Shown: piece after piece, positions 26,013-33,910 of the stretch
Position numbering within the stretch: position 1 is the first letter of the stretch
How the letters are laid out: the number at the start of each line of letters is the position of its first letter
DNA from: Gemmatimonadaceae bacterium
Lineage (GTDB): Bacteria; Gemmatimonadota; Gemmatimonadetes; Gemmatimonadales; Gemmatimonadaceae
DNA length: 64,000 nt
Direction: 5' to 3'
NCBI GenBank assembly: GCA_019637355.1
Contig: JAHBVT010000001.1
Coordinates: 2,697,192 to 2,761,191, forward strand
Notes under the pieces: generated by a model
The model's database searches: none
The model's input: only the letters and a program-made list of their open reading frames with translations
What the model was told of the DNA's origin: nothing
Made by a program: the position numbers and the translations under genes

Positions 26013-26229
26013 AGGGTGGGATGCTGCGCTGATTGAGGGTGGCACGCTGGCCGGCAGCGCGAATTCTACAGCGCGCTCGTCCGCTTGGCCCTGAGGCAGT
26101 TGGGCAACTGCTTGGCGACGGCCGCTCCACAGGAGTGCCCAGTAATATCTGCGCTGGAAACCGATCGCCGGACTCGATTCCGTTCAGGTCAGATCACCAA
26201 CGCAGCCCGCGGCCACGACGTCCCGGCGG

Positions 26230-27285
26230 TCAGCGCCTTCGAACGACTATCGCTCTAGGATACGGGAAGTTGTCTAGGATTACGAGCCTGTCGCCTCGGG
26301 CTGCCGCGACCAGCGGTAGACGTTCCGAGCGCTCGACCTCCGTCCCGTTCGTGAGATTGAGAAGTCGCGAGTCGATTGCGCTGAACTCTCGAGTCTCGGG
26401 AGGAGGGCCGGGAAAGCTCCGGACGTACTGAACGAGCAGATGCTGCTCATCCCACGCGACCATCGAACGCGCGAAGCTCGCCCCGTGAATCGAGTCGAGC
26501 ACGCCCCCGACACTGCCGTCGTCATTAACCCGGAAAGCGAGGGAGTGAACGCCATCCAGCCGGTTCGACCACTTCAACTGCCCGAGCGAGTCATACGCGT
26601 GCACCAGCGGGTGCGATCTACCAGCGAGAACCACCTGACTCCGTCGTTCATCGCAATAGAGACGCGGTTCGACAATCTGGCGGCGAGCAAGGAGGCCGAA
26701 CGTGCCGGCCGTGGCCTGCGGCAAAGACGGTTCCGGTCCGAAGGAGCGTCGCGCCTTCCCGTCCGGCCCGAGAGTGTGAGCCACGAACCCATCGAGCAGG
26801 AAGCTTGCGTAAACCCGACCCGCCAGTTCGCAAACGCTTGTCGAAACGTGCAGCGTACCAATCGAAGAGTCGAGGGACACGCGGCCACCAGTCGCCCGGA
26901 GAAACGAGAGGCGTGCGGAGGCAGGATCGAGCGCGAGGATCGCACCGGACGCGCTGCTGCCGATCGCTCGCGGTTGCGAGAGTTCCCCAGGACCCCTGCC
27001 CACTCTGGTGGAAGCCTGGAATCGTCCCACCGAATCGAACCACGAAACGCCGGGACGACGGAGATCCAGGAGCGCCAGGTCCCCGTGCGGGCCGTACTCC
27101 GCCGCGATGAGCTGGCCGAACTCCTGTTGCGGGTCGCCGTCCGCGACGCCCACGATGGCGACGGTGTCGACGGACCACAGGAGCAGCGTGGACGAGAGGG
27201 TTTGCGGGTTCTCACCGCCGCCTGTACAGCCGCCGAGCATTACTGCGGCAAGCAATGCTCGGACTGCGTGATGGACGTTGACCAT
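26230..27285 (-). CDS. Six-bladed beta-propeller lipoprotein (propeller 1)
   Basis: A 351-residue exported protein with a lipobox (LGGCTGG) and repeated beta-blade units. Hallmarks are GDLALLDLRRPGVSWFDSVG followed by RVGRGPGELSQP, the G-x-G-PGE-type loop shared by all six propeller genes here. The fold belongs to the 6-bladed/NHL-like group found as secreted proteins in Bacteroidota and Gemmatimonadota; the function is unproven. Base composition is clearly more AT-rich than the core genes. A broken Cys-rich mini-gene lies directly upstream on the same strand. Family assignment rests on pattern similarity, not a search. Confidence 0.72.
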   Translation of the reverse strand: MVNVHHAVRALLAAVMLGGCTGGGENPQTLSSTLLLWSVDTVAIVGVADGDPQQEFGQLIAAEYGPHGDLALLDLRRPGVSWFDSVGRFQASTRVGRGPGELSQPRAIGSSASGAILALDPASARLSFLRATGGRVSLDSSIGTLHVSTSVCELAGRVYASFLLDGFVAHTLGPDGKARRSFGPEPSLPQATAGTFGLLARRQIVEPRLYCDERRSQVVLAGRSHPLVHAYDSLGQLKWSNRLDGVHSLAFRVNDDGSVGGVLDSIHGASFARSMVAWDEQHLLVQYVRSFPGPPPETREFSAIDSRLLNLTNGTEVERSERLPLVAAARGDRLVILDNFPYPRAIVVRRR

Positions 27286-27353
27286 TGAACGCTCGCGCGG
27301 CGACCCACGCGAAGGACCTGCTGTCCGCACTCTCGTCGGGTACGCCAAAGCTT

Positions 27354-27544
27354 CTACTGCTGATTGCACGGACTGGACTTGCAGGGATCGCCACTACAGC
27401 TGTACTTGAGGTCAGTATTGAAGCAGGTGTTGTACTGCGTGTCGCAAGCCTGGCTATCGCACCCAGACGTTGCCGAGAGTGGCGGTGCGACTAAGAGAGA
27501 TGCAACAAGCCCCGCAAGCGCCGCACCAAGAAGCTATCCTGCAT
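27354..27544 (-). pseudogene. Cys-rich secreted mini-gene, apparently frameshifted
   Basis: On the minus strand, 27533-27354 is an open frame of 59 codons. It reads as a hydrophobic signal-like start (LLGAALAGLVASLLVAPPLSA) and then a small domain with six Cys (CDSQACDTQYNTC and CSGDPCKSSPC, ending NQQ). No ATG, GTG, TTG or CTG exists in this frame, and an in-frame TAG precedes it. An ATG at 27544 with GGCGGG upstream lies one base out of frame. Inserting one A in GATAGCTT (giving GATAAGCTT) would restore an intact start, MQDK then LLGAAL. It therefore looks like a single-base deletion or a sequencing error. It sits 68 bases upstream of propeller 1 on the same strand. Confidence 0.55.
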
Positions 27545-27685
27545 CCCGCCAAGTCGCTCGTGTCCTGACACCGGACATCCGCGCGTGGGCAAGGTGTTGC
27601 ACTTAGTATGTGAATGCGCGGGGCCTAACCGCTAGTTGCTGCTGACAGCGGCTGCGCCGCTGCAGCAGAACGTAGGGTTAGGCTG
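27545..27685. other. Non-coding remainder upstream of the Cys-rich mini-gene
   Basis: I find no supported gene here. The stretch is more AT-rich than the core genome and contains a small inverted pair around GCTGCGCCGCTGCAGC (27651-27666) that could form a short hairpin downstream of the unknown gene at 27686. Confidence 0.4.
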
Positions 27686-28138
27686 TCACGCGAGTGCCCG
27701 CAAGAAGTCTGCAACAGTCAGATCCAGGATACGTTCGACCCACTCGTCCTCGTTCTTCGGCGCCGGAGCGAAGAACACACTCTCGACGCGCGTCGGCTTC
27801 TCGCGGAACTTGCGTTCGACAAGATCCAGCAAGCCGAAAGCAAACGGGTCGACAACATCATCGAGACCGACCTTGGTCATGAGCTTCCCAATCTCGCTCC
27901 CTAGCTCATTCCGATGAACTCGAAGCGACTCGCGTAGAGTTTCGGTTGGGCGGAGATGCCCGACTTCAACCCCGATCACTTTTGCGAGTTCAGCGGCGAG
28001 CGAGCTGACCGCGCTCTCGTCCTCGAGTCCGGCACTGCCGACGACTGATTCCACGAGGGGAATCATCGGCCTTTGCCGTAGTCGCTCGCGCACCTGAGCT
28101 TCGGCAGCTCTCAGGAGCTTGGTGGTGGTGAATGCCAT
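27686..28138 (-). CDS. Unknown small soluble protein downstream of the RHS gene
   Basis: A 150-residue protein with no signal peptide. It is mainly helical and acidic towards the C-terminus (DDVVDPFAFGLLDLVERKF, then EDEWVERILDLTVADFL). I do not recognise a family. It begins 26 bases after the RHS stop codon on the same strand, the usual place for an immunity gene of a polymorphic toxin, but nothing in its sequence proves that. Base composition is well below the genome's GC level, and it contains CATG at 27878, a word almost absent elsewhere in the window. Both points suggest recent arrival together with the RHS tip. ATG 28138 is the first start that avoids running into the RHS gene. Confidence 0.6.
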   Translation of the reverse strand: MAFTTTKLLRAAEAQVRERLRQRPMIPLVESVVGSAGLEDESAVSSLAAELAKVIGVEVGHLRPTETLRESLRVHRNELGSEIGKLMTKVGLDDVVDPFAFGLLDLVERKFREKPTRVESVFFAPAPKNEDEWVERILDLTVADFLRALA

Positions 28139-28164
28139 CTGCGGGTTCCTCCTCGAGTTCGGCG

Positions 28165-31100
28165 TTAGGGCTCTCTGGCTTCCAAGCCACACCGCACGAG
28201 TGTGGTAACCACGTAGGTGGTCGCGAACGTCGACACAACGGCGGCACCCGTTCCGAGTGTACCGGCGGTCTTCACTGCGCCACTGCCTACCGTTCGTACT
28301 GGCATTCCACCTTGAGTGTTCGCGCCTGGCAGTCCCGGAAAGCGCCGATCGACCGACGTGAACGGTGAGGAGCCCGGCTGCCGGAAGCCTTGGCCCATCT
28401 TCATGTTCGCAAGGCCAAGAGGTGAAAGCGCCAGCATCGCGTTGAAGCCCGGCGTGTCTTGAGTGCACGTATGCATCCGCGAGAGATATGCCGTACGCTC
28501 TGCGGCCCGCTGCTCACGTTCTGCTTCCTCGGCCTTCTCGCACTCTTCTCGCTCAGCCGTTGCGAGCGAATCGGGACAGAGACCGAAGGGATCCGAAAAG
28601 TTTATGGGGTCGCCGTTCGCGTACCCGTACAAATTCAGGCCGCCGGCGAGCCCGATCGGGTCCGGCTGCGTGAACTGCCCGCTTGCCGGATTGTAGTACC
28701 GGTTCCGCATATACTGCAACCCGCTCGGGTCCGTCTTCCCGTCGAGCAGGCTGCCCTGCCACGACGTCGCCGTCGGCGGCGAGACGCGCGCATCCGGCGC
28801 GTGGTACACCCCGGCATAGCGCTGCGGCCAGTGGTAGCCCGTGACCTCGGTCCCGCTGCCGACGTACGTCCCCGTCTCGTAGGTCCCGCGCCCGCTGCGG
28901 TGCGGCACGAAGGCCGCGCTCCCGTCCTTGTGCACGAGCACGGGATCGTCGATGCCCTCCGCGTGCACGTAGCGCACCCGCCCGAAGAACGCCGCCCCGC
29001 TCGGCGCCGTGGTGCTCTCGAGCGTGGCGTCGCCGGCCCCTGCGTGCCCGGCCGAGCGCAACTCGTAGAGCAGCTCGTCGCCGTCCCAGACGAAGCGGTC
29101 CATCGTCGAGAGGCAGTTCCCGCTGAGGGCGCTCACGGAGTCGGGGCAGGTCTGCACGTCGGCGCGCGTGCGCACGAGCACCCGGCGGCCGAGCGCGTCG
29201 TAGCGGTACTCGGTCTGGAGGTGCCGCCCGGTGCTGCGGTCGAAGGAGCGCTGCGAGACACGCAGGCGCTGCAGGGCGTCGTAGGCGTAGAATGCGTACT
29301 CGCTTCCTTCGAGCGGGCTCTCGAAGACGTCCTCCCCTTGCCCGTCGAGGTGGGAGAAGCGCCGCGCCAGCTGCAGCGCGAGCACCAGGTTGCGCGCGTT
29401 GTCGAAACTGTGGGTGACGGTGTCCAGCACGGTGACGGCGGGGGCGCTGCCCGAGCGGACGGTCGAGAGCGGGTCGGGTTGCCGCGCGGTCTGCACGTCG
29501 CCGCTGTAGAGCTGGTCGCTCGCCGCACGCCCCGCGGGGGACGCGCGGTTGCTGTGCGTGCGCCAGACCCGGCCGAGCGCGTCCGCGTCGAACTCGTCGG
29601 TCAGGCGGCCGAGGGTGCCGTAGTTCACGTAACGCGTCACGGCGGAGACCGCGCCGAACCCGTCGTAGGCCACGTAGGCGGTGTCGCTGAGGGTCGCGTT
29701 CCACGCCGCGCTGTGGCGCGACACCTGCTTGTCGCGCTCGTCATAGGTGAACGCGTCGGCGAAGATGGTGTAGCCGCCGAAGCCCGTCTCGCTGCGGCTC
29801 TCCAGCCGCCCCGCCGTGTCGTAGGTGTTGGTGAGCGCGATGCCCGGCGACGCACCGACGACCTGCCGCGTGAGCAACTGGCCGATGGTGTTGTGCGTCA
29901 TCGCGAAGGTGGTCTTGCTTCCAGACCCGATGAGCGAGTCGACCAGGCCGGTCAGGAAGCCGGTCTCGGGATGGTACGTGTACTTCAAGTGCCGCCCGAA
30001 CGTGTCGGAGCGCCCCGTGCGTCGCCCGAGCAGGTCGACGAGGAACGTCAGGCCGTAGACGTGCGTGGCGTAGGGTGACGCCGCGGTATCGGCGGCGTCG
30101 TAGCGCCGCAGTCGCAGGGTGTCGGTCTTGAGGGCGCCATTGGCGTAGTACGAGCGCGCAATCCGCGCGTCCCGGTTGTCGGCCGTGAGGAGGCGTCCGC
30201 CGGCGTCGTAGGTGAACAGCTCGAGGTCGCCCGGGATGAGCAGGCTGGGCGTGGTGCCGCCACCGAGGAGCGGGCTGCCAAAGTACGGGAAGGTCACGCG
30301 CGGACCGATCCAGCCCGGGGGCTGGTTGGAACAGGCCTCGCAGACGACCTGCGCGGCGGACACCTCCGGCAGGAAACGATACAGGAGGCGACCGAGCGCG
30401 TCGTAGCCCTGCCGGACCTGGTGCCCGCGCCGCGTGATCTGAATCGTCGCATTGCCGGCGGGGTCGTATCGGAAGGAATCCGGATGCACGGCCTCGTTGT
30501 GCCGGAGGACGCGGTTGGCCGCGTCGTAGAGGTAACTGGTCTGCGCACCGGCGGTACCGGGTCCCCCGAGCGTCCACCGCCCGATGGTGAGGACGTTGCC
30601 CTCCGCATCGTAGGTGTTGTGGACGATGCGCGTGCGCTCCGGCACCAGGTCCCAGGTCGCGTCACCAAGGCTGTCGAGGCGCGTGGTCGCCAACCCCACC
30701 GTGATGACGGAGTCCACCAGACCGATCGGGTTCCGGACGATGCGCTCGGTGAACCGGCCGGCGTCATCCTCGCGCTTGATCTCGAAGCCGAACGGATCGC
30801 GCACGGACGTGATCTTCGCGGCGAACTCCCGGACGGCAGAGACGTTTCCGAGGGCGTCGCGCCAGAGGGTGGTATGCTGCCCGGGTCCGACGACGCTATC
30901 CACCAGATTGTCGTCGTCGTAGTGAAAGTTCACGCGGGAGCCGGAGTCGTTGCTCCGTTGCGTCCAGTTCCGCAGTGGCCACGTACTGTCGTAGCTGTGG
31001 ATGATCGAGTCGAGGAGCGGCTGCGCGACGGTCAGCGGCAAGTGCCACTTCGTATGCCACGCAATCGTCGTCACGGCATTGCTGTCCGTGCCGATGGGAT

Positions 31101-33780
31101 TGACGGTCGTGAGAGACGTCGGCAGCCCGCGCGCGTTGTAGGCCGCCTGCTGCGTCAGCCCGGTGGGATCTTGGACGCCCAGCACCCGGCCCGGGAAATC
31201 GGGGTCTCGGCCCAGCGCCGTGCGGCCGCCGAGCGCATCGAAGAGGGAGTCGAGCTGTCCGAAGCGGTTGAGGTGGAACGTGGTGACGTCGATGAGGCCG
31301 CCGCGCGGACCGTCCACGCGCGTGACGACGCTCGGGAGCGGCACGCCACCGACGCTGCCCTCGGACCAGGCGCAGGCCACGAGGCTGCGGGTCTCGGCCG
31401 GGCAGTAGCGCGTCGTGATCGTGGTATCGCCGGTCCGCTGCATCCCGATGCTCGTCTGACTGATGGCACCGAACGCGTCGTAGGTGAAGGCCACGGTGTC
31501 GGCGGCGATGCGGCGGCGGCGCCAGCCCACGCGGCCGTGGGCACCTGCGGTATCGAAGCGCACCACGTGCGCATTGGGGTCCGTGATGCCGTCCACGGCC
31601 CCATTCCCGGCGTGCGTCACGGCCACCGTGCGCGTACTGTCGCCCGGATTGCGTTCGGCACGCACTTGCGTGAGGAGGCCTCCGCTGTACGCGAGTTCGT
31701 AGCGCAGATACGCCGACGAGGCGGCCGGGGCCGGCAGGAGAATGCGGGTGAGACGGTCGCTGGTGTACGTGAAGACGGTCGTGTCGCCGAGCCGGCCGAC
31801 GGTTCGCGTGTGCCGCCCATTGTCGTCGAACCGGACGTACGCGCGGTCCGGCAACAGGCGCCGCCAGTCACCGGATCCCACGTGCCCGAGCGTATCCACG
31901 CGAGTCAGCGGGGCGTGCGCGTAGTAGTTGGCGGTATCGGCGCCCGCGCCGCGGATGTACAGTCGCGTGCTGCCGTCCCCGCCGATCCAGAGCTTGTGGG
32001 TGGCAGAGAGGTGAAGGACTTGCTCCAGCCCCTCAAGCCACCACCCGCGGCCGAACGGACTGGCGATACGGTTCACGACCACGAAGCTGCCGGTGTCCGT
32101 GGCGGCGTAGCTGCTGTCGCCGGGCGACTGTGCACGCAACGTGTAGTGGTACAGGCCGGTGGCGAGCGCCAGCGAATCGGCGTTCACGGGGTAGACCACG
32201 CGGCAGGCGGCGTTCCGGCAACTGGCCGGCCACGCGAACTTCCGCATCGGCAGACTCGCCCCGCCGGTGATCTCGAGCGAAATGCCCATCGTGTCCGGCG
32301 TGGCGTGGAGCGTCGTCACGTCGGCCGCGACGAGCGCGATGGGATTCGCGTGCCGGCTGAGGTAGGTCAGGGCCGGAGTCCATCGACGGCCCATCGTGTG
32401 GACTGTCGGCAGCGGGTGCGCGAGGCGAAGGTCTCCGCACTCGACGCCCGCGGCGTCGCCCGCCGCGAAGGAGACGCATTGTCCGCGCGCCAAGGTCGAG
32501 CCCGGGTTGACCGCGTGTGAGGCGACGAGGACCGACGGCGCACCGCCGCTGCCACCGTTGGGCCCGACGGTGACGGCCGTCCGGCCCGTCGCCGAGGCGC
32601 CCTCTGCACGGGCCGTGAGGTAGACGGCCCCGACCGTCGGAGTCGAGAAGGACTTTGCGACAATGGAATCGACGGTCACCATCGAGGAACTGCCGGCACC
32701 GATCGTCACGGTGGCCGGCGCCTTGCAGGGTGTGGCCTCGAGCGCGACGGTGCACGAGGCCTGCAACGTGTAGGTGGTCGCGACCGTGCCGGTGTTGCCG
32801 ACGGTGAACGAAGCGCTGAACGTAGTCCCGTTGCCCTGCTGGGTGGTATTGGCCGTCGGCGTCACGGTGACCGCGCGCGCGACGGGCGCCGACGGCGGGA
32901 CAGGGTGCGTGTTCGTGCGCTGCGAACAAACGTCCTGAGAGTCGACGTAGCGGCAGACCCGGAAGGTGACTACCCCCATCCCGACCGAGTTCCCACTCAC
33001 CAAGACCGAGACGGTCGCCGAGTTGCCACCGGCAATGGTGACGTGGGAGGAGCCGACGATGCTGCACCCGGAAGCGCTGCGCGTGCAGAGGGCCGCAAGG
33101 CTGTAGGTGCGTGCATAGCCGACGCCATTGGCGATCCGGTAACGCAGGGTCGCGTTCTGGCCGATCGCGAGCACCGTGCCTGGGTCAAGCGGGGTGAGCG
33201 TCGTCTCCGTGTCCTCAGGGTACTCGCGGTAGTACGTGAAGGTCCGCTCGTCGCAGGCGTAGGCGGGCCAGTTCGAGCAGGCGTACACGGTGAACGTGTT
33301 CGCGCCAAGCTCCATCCCGGTGTCGTAGGCCGGATTCCAGTTCACGAAGTAGGCCGTTCCTGACTCGCCCGACCCACATTGAGCGTACGCATCCGAATTG
33401 ACGCTGGCGATTGGCGCGGTCACCTCGACTTCCGTGACGCCGTACTGGTGACAGATGGAGACGATGACTTCGAGCGTCGGGCTCAGGTTGGTCCAGTGGT
33501 TCGGGACCGACACGTAGATGTTTGGAATTGCTCCGCGTGAACGCGAGAGCGAGTCGCCCACTCGCAAGGAGGGAGCAGCGACGAGGTCGTTGTCAGCGGC
33601 GGCGGTCACCGGAGCCGCACCCCTCGCCCAGTGCGCACTGATGGCAAGTAGTGCGATTCCCACGCTGACAGCGCCAAGCCGCAGTGCGAGAGTGGATGGC
33701 AGCCCTACCCTCACTACCTGCACCACCCGACGAAAAGCACTATGCAGCGCAAGAAGTCCTACACTCGTTCTCGTGAGCAT
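28165..33780 (-). CDS. RHS/YD-repeat surface protein
   Basis: A 1871-residue protein. An N-terminal hydrophobic segment (residues about 30-55) should serve as export signal or anchor. Residues about 60-430 contain Cys-containing and CARDB/Ig-like beta domains. From about 560 to 1720 there are many YD/RHS repeats forming a shell (YDALGRLLYRF, YRYDALGRRV, FVWDGDELLYEL). The core ends with the usual hyper-conserved junction (YNPASGQFTQPDPIGLAGGLNLYGYANGDP, here noted as YANGDPINFSDPFGL). The last about 105 residues form a distinct tip: a charged helix rich in Glu and Arg, then a Gly-rich hydrophobic stretch ending VTTLVRCGLEAREP. The tip has no toxin motif I recognise. It contains CATG (28402) and lower GC, unlike the repeat core. 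Confidence 0.9.
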   Translation of the reverse strand: MLTRTSVGLLALHSAFRRVVQVVRVGLPSTLALRLGAVSVGIALLAISAHWARGAAPVTAAADNDLVAAPSLRVGDSLSRSRGAIPNIYVSVPNHWTNLSPTLEVIVSICHQYGVTEVEVTAPIASVNSDAYAQCGSGESGTAYFVNWNPAYDTGMELGANTFTVYACSNWPAYACDERTFTYYREYPEDTETTLTPLDPGTVLAIGQNATLRYRIANGVGYARTYSLAALCTRSASGCSIVGSSHVTIAGGNSATVSVLVSGNSVGMGVVTFRVCRYVDSQDVCSQRTNTHPVPPSAPVARAVTVTPTANTTQQGNGTTFSASFTVGNTGTVATTYTLQASCTVALEATPCKAPATVTIGAGSSSMVTVDSIVAKSFSTPTVGAVYLTARAEGASATGRTAVTVGPNGGSGGAPSVLVASHAVNPGSTLARGQCVSFAAGDAAGVECGDLRLAHPLPTVHTMGRRWTPALTYLSRHANPIALVAADVTTLHATPDTMGISLEITGGASLPMRKFAWPASCRNAACRVVYPVNADSLALATGLYHYTLRAQSPGDSSYAATDTGSFVVVNRIASPFGRGWWLEGLEQVLHLSATHKLWIGGDGSTRLYIRGAGADTANYYAHAPLTRVDTLGHVGSGDWRRLLPDRAYVRFDDNGRHTRTVGRLGDTTVFTYTSDRLTRILLPAPAASSAYLRYELAYSGGLLTQVRAERNPGDSTRTVAVTHAGNGAVDGITDPNAHVVRFDTAGAHGRVGWRRRRIAADTVAFTYDAFGAISQTSIGMQRTGDTTITTRYCPAETRSLVACAWSEGSVGGVPLPSVVTRVDGPRGGLIDVTTFHLNRFGQLDSLFDALGGRTALGRDPDFPGRVLGVQDPTGLTQQAAYNARGLPTSLTTVNPIGTDSNAVTTIAWHTKWHLPLTVAQPLLDSIIHSYDSTWPLRNWTQRSNDSGSRVNFHYDDDNLVDSVVGPGQHTTLWRDALGNVSAVREFAAKITSVRDPFGFEIKREDDAGRFTERIVRNPIGLVDSVITVGLATTRLDSLGDATWDLVPERTRIVHNTYDAEGNVLTIGRWTLGGPGTAGAQTSYLYDAANRVLRHNEAVHPDSFRYDPAGNATIQITRRGHQVRQGYDALGRLLYRFLPEVSAAQVVCEACSNQPPGWIGPRVTFPYFGSPLLGGGTTPSLLIPGDLELFTYDAGGRLLTADNRDARIARSYYANGALKTDTLRLRRYDAADTAASPYATHVYGLTFLVDLLGRRTGRSDTFGRHLKYTYHPETGFLTGLVDSLIGSGSKTTFAMTHNTIGQLLTRQVVGASPGIALTNTYDTAGRLESRSETGFGGYTIFADAFTYDERDKQVSRHSAAWNATLSDTAYVAYDGFGAVSAVTRYVNYGTLGRLTDEFDADALGRVWRTHSNRASPAGRAASDQLYSGDVQTARQPDPLSTVRSGSAPAVTVLDTVTHSFDNARNLVLALQLARRFSHLDGQGEDVFESPLEGSEYAFYAYDALQRLRVSQRSFDRSTGRHLQTEYRYDALGRRVLVRTRADVQTCPDSVSALSGNCLSTMDRFVWDGDELLYELRSAGHAGAGDATLESTTAPSGAAFFGRVRYVHAEGIDDPVLVHKDGSAAFVPHRSGRGTYETGTYVGSGTEVTGYHWPQRYAGVYHAPDARVSPPTATSWQGSLLDGKTDPSGLQYMRNRYYNPASGQFTQPDPIGLAGGLNLYGYANGDPINFSDPFGLCPDSLATAEREECEKAEEAEREQRAAERTAYLSRMHTCTQDTPGFNAMLALSPLGLANMKMGQGFRQPGSSPFTSVDRRFPGLPGANTQGGMPVRTVGSGAVKTAGTLGTGAAVVSTFATTYVVTTLVRCGLEAREP

Positions 33781-33839
33781 TTGAGGTAGGCTAGCGTGGA
33801 CAGTGGCTCCCGCACGACTCGCCTACCATAAAGACTCAC

Positions 33840-33868
33840 ATTCTAGTGCGCCAGTACTGTTTTGTGCC
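33840..33868 (-). promoter_or_regulatory. Weak promoter candidate for the RHS gene
   Basis: The AT-richer gap upstream of the RHS start contains TAGAAT (complement of 33840-33845) as a -10 candidate. GGCACA (33863-33868) lies 17 bases upstream as a poor -35. Only the -10 resembles the consensus, so support is weak. Confidence 0.25.
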
Positions 33869-33910
33869 ACGATGCCTAGGTCACTGCCGAAACCGACGGC
33901 TGTAACGGAC

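Follow-up and report, generated by a model that had tools for sequence, protein, structure and literature searches.

The window, i.e. the whole 64-kb stretch of DNA that was analysed (contig C1, positions 2697192-2761191), contains one RHS gene, which is the sole RHS gene detected in the 3.15-Mb genome. Its product matches the RHS-associated core model TIGR03696 of NCBIfam at residues 1672-1734 (E-value 5e-18, 65 bits against a cut-off of 32.5) as well as the RHS_repeat family PF05593 (1.2e-10). The N-terminus of the protein is hydrophobic and signal-like, and no PAAR domain, the feature by which T6SS-type RHS effectors are judged, was found in it with Pfam or NCBIfam. The core ends in DPFGL, i.e. 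in the DPxGL-type motif by which membership is recognised, and the junction reads INFSDPFGL followed by C.

Beyond the junction lies a C-terminal tip. The next gene, which we call the partner, starts 26 nt past the RHS stop codon on the same strand, and an attC-like hairpin follows it (Table 1). The preliminary description of this DNA had proposed that tip and partner form a recently acquired module of the toxin/immunity type, and it had read the order of junction, tip and partner, including the 26-nt spacing, correctly. The interval that it gave (27686-28560) leaves out the hairpin, and it stops short of the tip's initial 6 residues.

Table 1. Features of the RHS locus, in window coordinates.
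Feature	Position	Strand	Basis
RHS gene, 1871 aa	28165..33780	-	TIGR03696 and PF05593 domain matches
RHS core including the DPFGL junction (28579-28593)	28579..33780	-	GC3 0.882, zero CATG
C-terminal tip, 137 aa after DPFGL, putative toxin domain	28165..28578	-	sequence, model, GC3 0.647
Partner gene, 150 aa, putative immunity protein, predicted ACP-like fold without carrier serine	27686..28138	-	model, one relative
attC-like hairpin, 61 nt, 2 nt after the partner stop	27623..27683	-	R boxes, fold, covariance model
CATG in tip	28402..28405		word count
CATG in partner	27878..27881		word count
Block without counterpart in four same-genus genomes, between the DUF486-like and AcrB genes	26046..33910		synteny

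The tip and its partner

The tip has no recognised domain or family in Pfam and NCBIfam, and the partner has no Pfam match, in agreement with the earlier statement that neither belongs to a known toxin or immunity family. No convincing relative of the tip was found in about 400 genomes of the class, and neither protein had a match among plasmids, viral contigs, PADLOC, PHROGs and PDB sequences. The sole relative of the partner is a 37% identical protein in G077, a Gemmatimonadetes MAG of the same family, where it is the third gene of an RHS locus that has no RHS-end hairpin. This relative stands behind an unrelated tip, so a one-to-one pairing of tip and partner is putative. As a pair, the two are absent from every other genome searched. 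Further matches to the tip or the partner (including those in L004, L005, L007 and L008) were discarded as short chance matches in unrelated genes or wrong frames.

In the single-sequence model of the tip, a helix is joined by a disordered linker to a hydrophobic helix at the C-terminus; the model has low confidence and no confident globular fold. Since the C-terminal helix is hydrophobic, a membrane would probably be the target. By analogy with known RHS systems we infer that the tip is a toxin and that the partner is the immunity protein for it.

For the partner, the best of five AlphaFold models, built with two sequences in the alignment, has a mean pLDDT of 81, the other four ranging from 66 to 35. 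Residues 38-150 of this model align to acyl carrier proteins (Z 6.3, 74 residues, 2.8 A), and the best rows are all ACPs, with Foldseek E-values above 3. A profile alignment with ACPs independently agrees on the register of loop I, though the similarity is weak (6 of 200 shuffles were equally good). The predicted fold of the partner may thus be related to that of acyl carrier proteins, from which it differs by an extra N-terminal helix, an insertion and the lack of the phosphopantetheine serine. The place of this serine is taken by D97-P98-F99 (S-P-F in the G077 relative), and there is no serine between residues 82 and 118, a range that includes the aligned carrier position. We rejected a working carrier protein because the carrier serine is missing, and a membrane-type immunity protein because the partner has no hydrophobic segment (maximum 1.16 on the Kyte-Doolittle scale over 19 residues). 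SCOP places ACPs and colicin E immunity proteins under one fold, so an immunity role of the partner may be compatible with an ACP-like fold.

Composition of the locus and exchange of tips in relatives

The word CATG occurs only four times in the window (10986, 21860, 27878 and 28402), as opposed to 245 +- 12 times in dinucleotide shuffles. Two of the four lie in the partner and the tip, as was pointed out in the preliminary description. That two copies fall within about 525 nt is weak evidence when taken alone, as some such pair would be expected anywhere in the window with a chance of about 10% by our estimate. Genome-wide, 16 of 20 sampled 20-kb stretches (400 kb) hold 0-3 copies and the other four hold 14-34, which shows that most of the chromosome has been purged of CATG, whereas the word persists in islands (e.g. 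L135, L140, L152 and L153, compared with the other sampled stretches). The rate outside the islands is about 0.04 per kb, and the ratio of observed to expected counts is 0.09 overall and near zero in core stretches. The clustering is stronger once this purge is counted: at the purged rate, 0.042 copies are expected in the 956-nt cassette and two are seen (the probability of two or more is 8.5e-4).

The 5.2-kb RHS core has no CATG where its composition predicts 15, and homologous cores in relatives have 9-10. In the same manner, the syntenic AcrB pair carries 9-16 copies in four same-genus relatives and none in the window genome, i.e. the relatives show no avoidance here. A likely cause of the purge is that the lineage has an active system, of the restriction type or similar, directed at CATG. 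Whatever its cause, the purge makes the word an unusual internal marker of recent DNA in this genome.

The base composition changes at the same place. G+C is 0.688 in the core (0.703 in its last 500 codons), 0.624 in the tip and 0.594 in the partner, so the earlier observation that tip and partner are AT-richer than the core holds. GC3 is 0.882 in the core as a whole and 0.944 in the last 500 codons, and it drops exactly at DPFGL to 0.647 in the tip and 0.669 in the partner; values of 0.67 or less are found in only 5% of ORFs from core-like stretches of the host genome. On the far side of the cassette, a 379-codon gene for a beta-propeller-like lipoprotein (26230-27369) has a GC3 of 0.70 and zero CATG.

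In four same-genus genomes the DUF486-like and AcrB genes are about 22-40 bp apart, whereas 7.9 kb lie between them in the window. As the flanking genes are adjacent in these four relatives, the 7.9-kb block is an insertion here or was lost elsewhere. Within the block, the tip-partner part looks youngest. A fifth relative, G005 (L165 6679-9534), has another insert of 2.9 kb between the same flanks, which encodes a 951-residue protein with phosphoesterase-like sequence, so the site may be an insertion hotspot.

A segment of the RHS core finds matches in 70 of 199 relatives, and in G015, which belongs to the same genus, the core is 41% identical over nearly its full length. We collected 51 tips from the RHS loci of the relatives set, including the window tip, and compared all 1275 pairs: only 12 pairs are related, and in two of these the next genes are related as well. 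One tip of the relatives is Tox-REase-7. The comparison of RHS loci thus gave conserved cores, followed by about 50 tips and next genes that are for the most part unrelated. In addition, G015 has orphan arrays of more than 15 units, each made of a conserved core end, an unrelated tip and an unrelated next gene, which is the classical layout of RHS CT-immunity cassettes (PMC4524185).

With conserved cores carrying varied tips and orphan arrays in the relatives, the proposal of an exchanged module was right; that tip and partner are an exchangeable module is well supported. The foreign composition, the absence of the block from four same-genus genomes and the occurrence of the pair in this genome alone among those searched support such a module as well. 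A clade-wide conserved pair with core-like composition, which would have spoken against it, was looked for and not found. Most likely, tip and next gene were recently exchanged as one unit.

The attC-like hairpin behind the partner

Read from 27683 to 27623, the hairpin is GCCTAAC-CCTA-CGTTCTGCTGCAGCGGC-GCA-GCCGCTG-t-CAGCAG-c-AAC-TAGCG-GTTAGGC. Its outer boxes, GCCTAAC and GTTAGGC, are complementary and fit RYYYAAC and GTTRRRY, the R boxes of attC sites (PMC7370490). Between the boxes there are unpaired spacers and a stem. On one side of the stem two bases are extrahelical and lie six nt apart (t-CAGCAG-c), which is the spacing that integron integrases prefer (PMC3053210). Neither an Rfam gathering search of window positions 24-36 kb nor a promoter/terminator scan gave a match. 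No other hairpin of this kind lies in the 64-kb window, and the host genome has exactly one further site with the same boxes, behind an RHS-type tip remnant and a partner. An IS3-type transposase gene truncates this remnant, whose sequence is similar to an RHS tip of G015 (E-value 0.013, common motif). A gene pair of DUF4411/PIN and M78-peptidase (ImmA/IrrE-like) type faces the second host site in the canonical cassette orientation (L166 1656-2923, minus strand). Close to the hairpin of the window, at about 27360-27533 on the minus strand, there is also a frame that would encode a short, cysteine-rich peptide beginning like a signal sequence (LLGAALAGLVASLLVAPPLSATSGCDSQACDTQYNTCFNTDLKYSC...); it is probably a relic, as it lacks a usual start codon and is immediately preceded by a stop.

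A covariance model (R1) was trained on five RHS-end hairpins only and run over 159 relative genomes. All 12 short matches of at least 50 bits lie behind an RHS tip and partner, one of them an IS-truncated remnant. The 11 matches with an intact junction are 633-1219 nt from the last core codon, on the same strand. The RHS-end hairpins come from seven genomes and three genera and follow unrelated tips, and at most sites the stop codon of the partner overlaps the R box or is within about 20 nt of it. In the seven hairpin-bearing genomes the site is present at 11 of 24 RHS junctions; the large arrays of G015 have none.

The alignment of twelve hairpin copies (11 sites, one of them in both directions) has 97.7% of its cells paired, and 9 of the 22 pairs have changed on both sides. 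The covariation is 0.32, compared with 0.01-0.06 when the pairing partner is slid. The R boxes are nearly invariant and the stems covary, i.e. the pattern of attC sites. The copy in G009 has one extrahelical base only.

R1 also detects an array in G032, where more than 60 directly oriented sites extend over about 55 kb beside an integron integrase (TIGR02249, 423 bits). In G044 and G068 an RHS unit stands between two hairpin sites in direct orientation; the window has one site only. The orientation of the RHS-end sites is conspicuous, since in all 11 testable cases they are inverted with respect to canonical cassettes: the partner is on the model strand, whereas at canonical sites in the relatives the gene is mostly opposite to it, as in class 1 integrons. 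We therefore dropped the simple view that the hairpin serves a tip-partner cassette as its normal attC. In the RHS surroundings that were searched, no integron integrase came to light. The only recombinase seen there is a non-integron tyrosine recombinase in G009, a same-genus genome, which scores below the TIGR02249 cut-off and was rejected as an integron integrase; it is a 620-residue protein with a C-terminal XerC-like domain, inside an RHS orphan array (L047 6778-8637).

How the modules may be exchanged

In the reading that we consider rather probable, the RHS protein of this locus carries a polymorphic-toxin cassette, with exchanged tip and partner and an attC-like 3' border. The giant RHS shell would be resident, and the tip and the gene behind it would be swapped as one unit, bounded on the 5' side by the DPFGL junction and on the 3' side by the hairpin right after the partner. 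Going by known RHS systems, the tip would be freed after DPFGL, enter a competing cell and harm it, while the partner would shield the producer. Since a subset of the tip-partner units in this family of Gemmatimonadota bears its own attC-like site, an integron integrase could excise, insert and stockpile such units as cassettes with their genes in the reverse of the usual direction. Homologous recombination at the conserved junction might then join stockpiled units to an RHS core. Our proposal for Gemmatimonadota as a whole, namely that RHS tip and immunity modules are mobilised as reverse-read integron cassettes, with the integrase building a library of tips and homologous recombination plugging them into the core, is a tentative one to which we would give somewhat less than an even chance.

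The tip-partner part is in itself a further case of a known type of RHS cassette, and the attC-like 3' border is new. RHS polymorphic toxins with orphan CT-immunity cassettes have been described in Serratia and Salmonella (PMC4524185; survey in PMC3482391). These systems share with the present one a core ending in DPxGL, a variable tip, a small gene behind it and displaced orphan pairs, and their reactivation by recombination into the core (PMC4524185) is a further likeness. The present locus differs from them by its secreted-type N-terminus without a detected PAAR domain, by a tip and partner outside known families, and by the attC-like hairpin in which a subset of the units ends. With integron cassettes (PMC8618304, PMC7370490, PMC3053210) the sites share the R boxes, the hairpin, the two extrahelical bases six nt apart, a stop codon in or beside the R box and, in G044 and G068, repeated sites in direct orientation. 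Unlike in those cassettes, the site is inverted relative to the genes, no integrase was found beside the RHS units, and the gene is joined to the end of a large resident gene or has arisen from it. The T6SS effector-immunity arrays of Vibrio cholerae likewise include displaced immunity arrays, and their authors liken insertion to integron recombination while stating that there is no evidence of integrase-mediated insertion (PMC5361080); attC-like sites at the module ends are an additional feature here.

The same data can be read in other ways. One is an ordinary RHS toxin-immunity cassette that moves by homologous recombination only, the hairpin being an attC relic or a common 3' sequence that provides homology on the right side. 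We regard this as a rather unlikely explanation. In its favour, the core junction sequence is repeated in every orphan unit, most RHS units have no hairpin, and in two genera the hairpin and a terminator-like sequence behind it are common to the loci, which would be enough for a double crossover, so that homologous exchange may be the sole use of the conserved 3' end. Against it, R boxes and bulges are kept from genus to genus whereas the stems vary and covary, as expected of a recognised structure rather than of mere homology, and pairs of sites in direct repeat bracket units. A far less probable view is that the hairpin is a transcription terminator, or an RNA end structure of convergent genes, and no recombination site. 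It does sit directly at gene ends, and G009 has a nearly perfect palindrome at which two convergent RHS units meet. However, it is without a T tract, a separate terminator-like hairpin follows the RHS-end hairpin in several loci, a terminator needs neither invariant R boxes nor bulges six nt apart, and a model trained on these hairpins finds canonical integron arrays.

Finally, the tip could be a decayed, non-toxic end of the RHS protein, with an unrelated or orphan gene behind it by chance. The missing tip domain and the low-confidence model would fit this, as would the position of the G077 relative, which comes third in its locus after an unrelated tip and a gene for a membrane protein. On the other hand, the tip is an open frame of typical length (138 residues if counted after the G of DPFG; the range in the set is 83-182), the partner follows closely on the same strand, and the hairpin comes directly after the partner, as in other units. 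We consider decay improbable.

It is an open question in the field by what route effector-immunity pairs arrive at RHS and T6SS loci and displace one another there. If the modules are indeed reverse-read cassettes, two major gene-shuffling systems of bacteria that are normally studied apart would be united, and integrons would provide bacteria with antibacterial weapons in addition to resistance genes. Among the papers searched, none mentions integron, attC, Rhs, toxin and immunity together. The attC-like site is at the exact 3' end of RHS modules with unrelated tips in three genera, which makes the involvement of an integrase directly testable.

Two further observations concern the surroundings of such sites. 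With model R1, attC sites of canonical length (95 nt) are also found at contig ends of the host genome (L217, 9026-18404; L218, 7432; L219, 1579; L135, 2220), so the host seems to carry an integron cassette array where the assembly breaks. Downstream of the hairpins in L198 and L199, the RHS units are followed by a MazEF-like toxin-antitoxin region that is about 79% identical between the two genomes.
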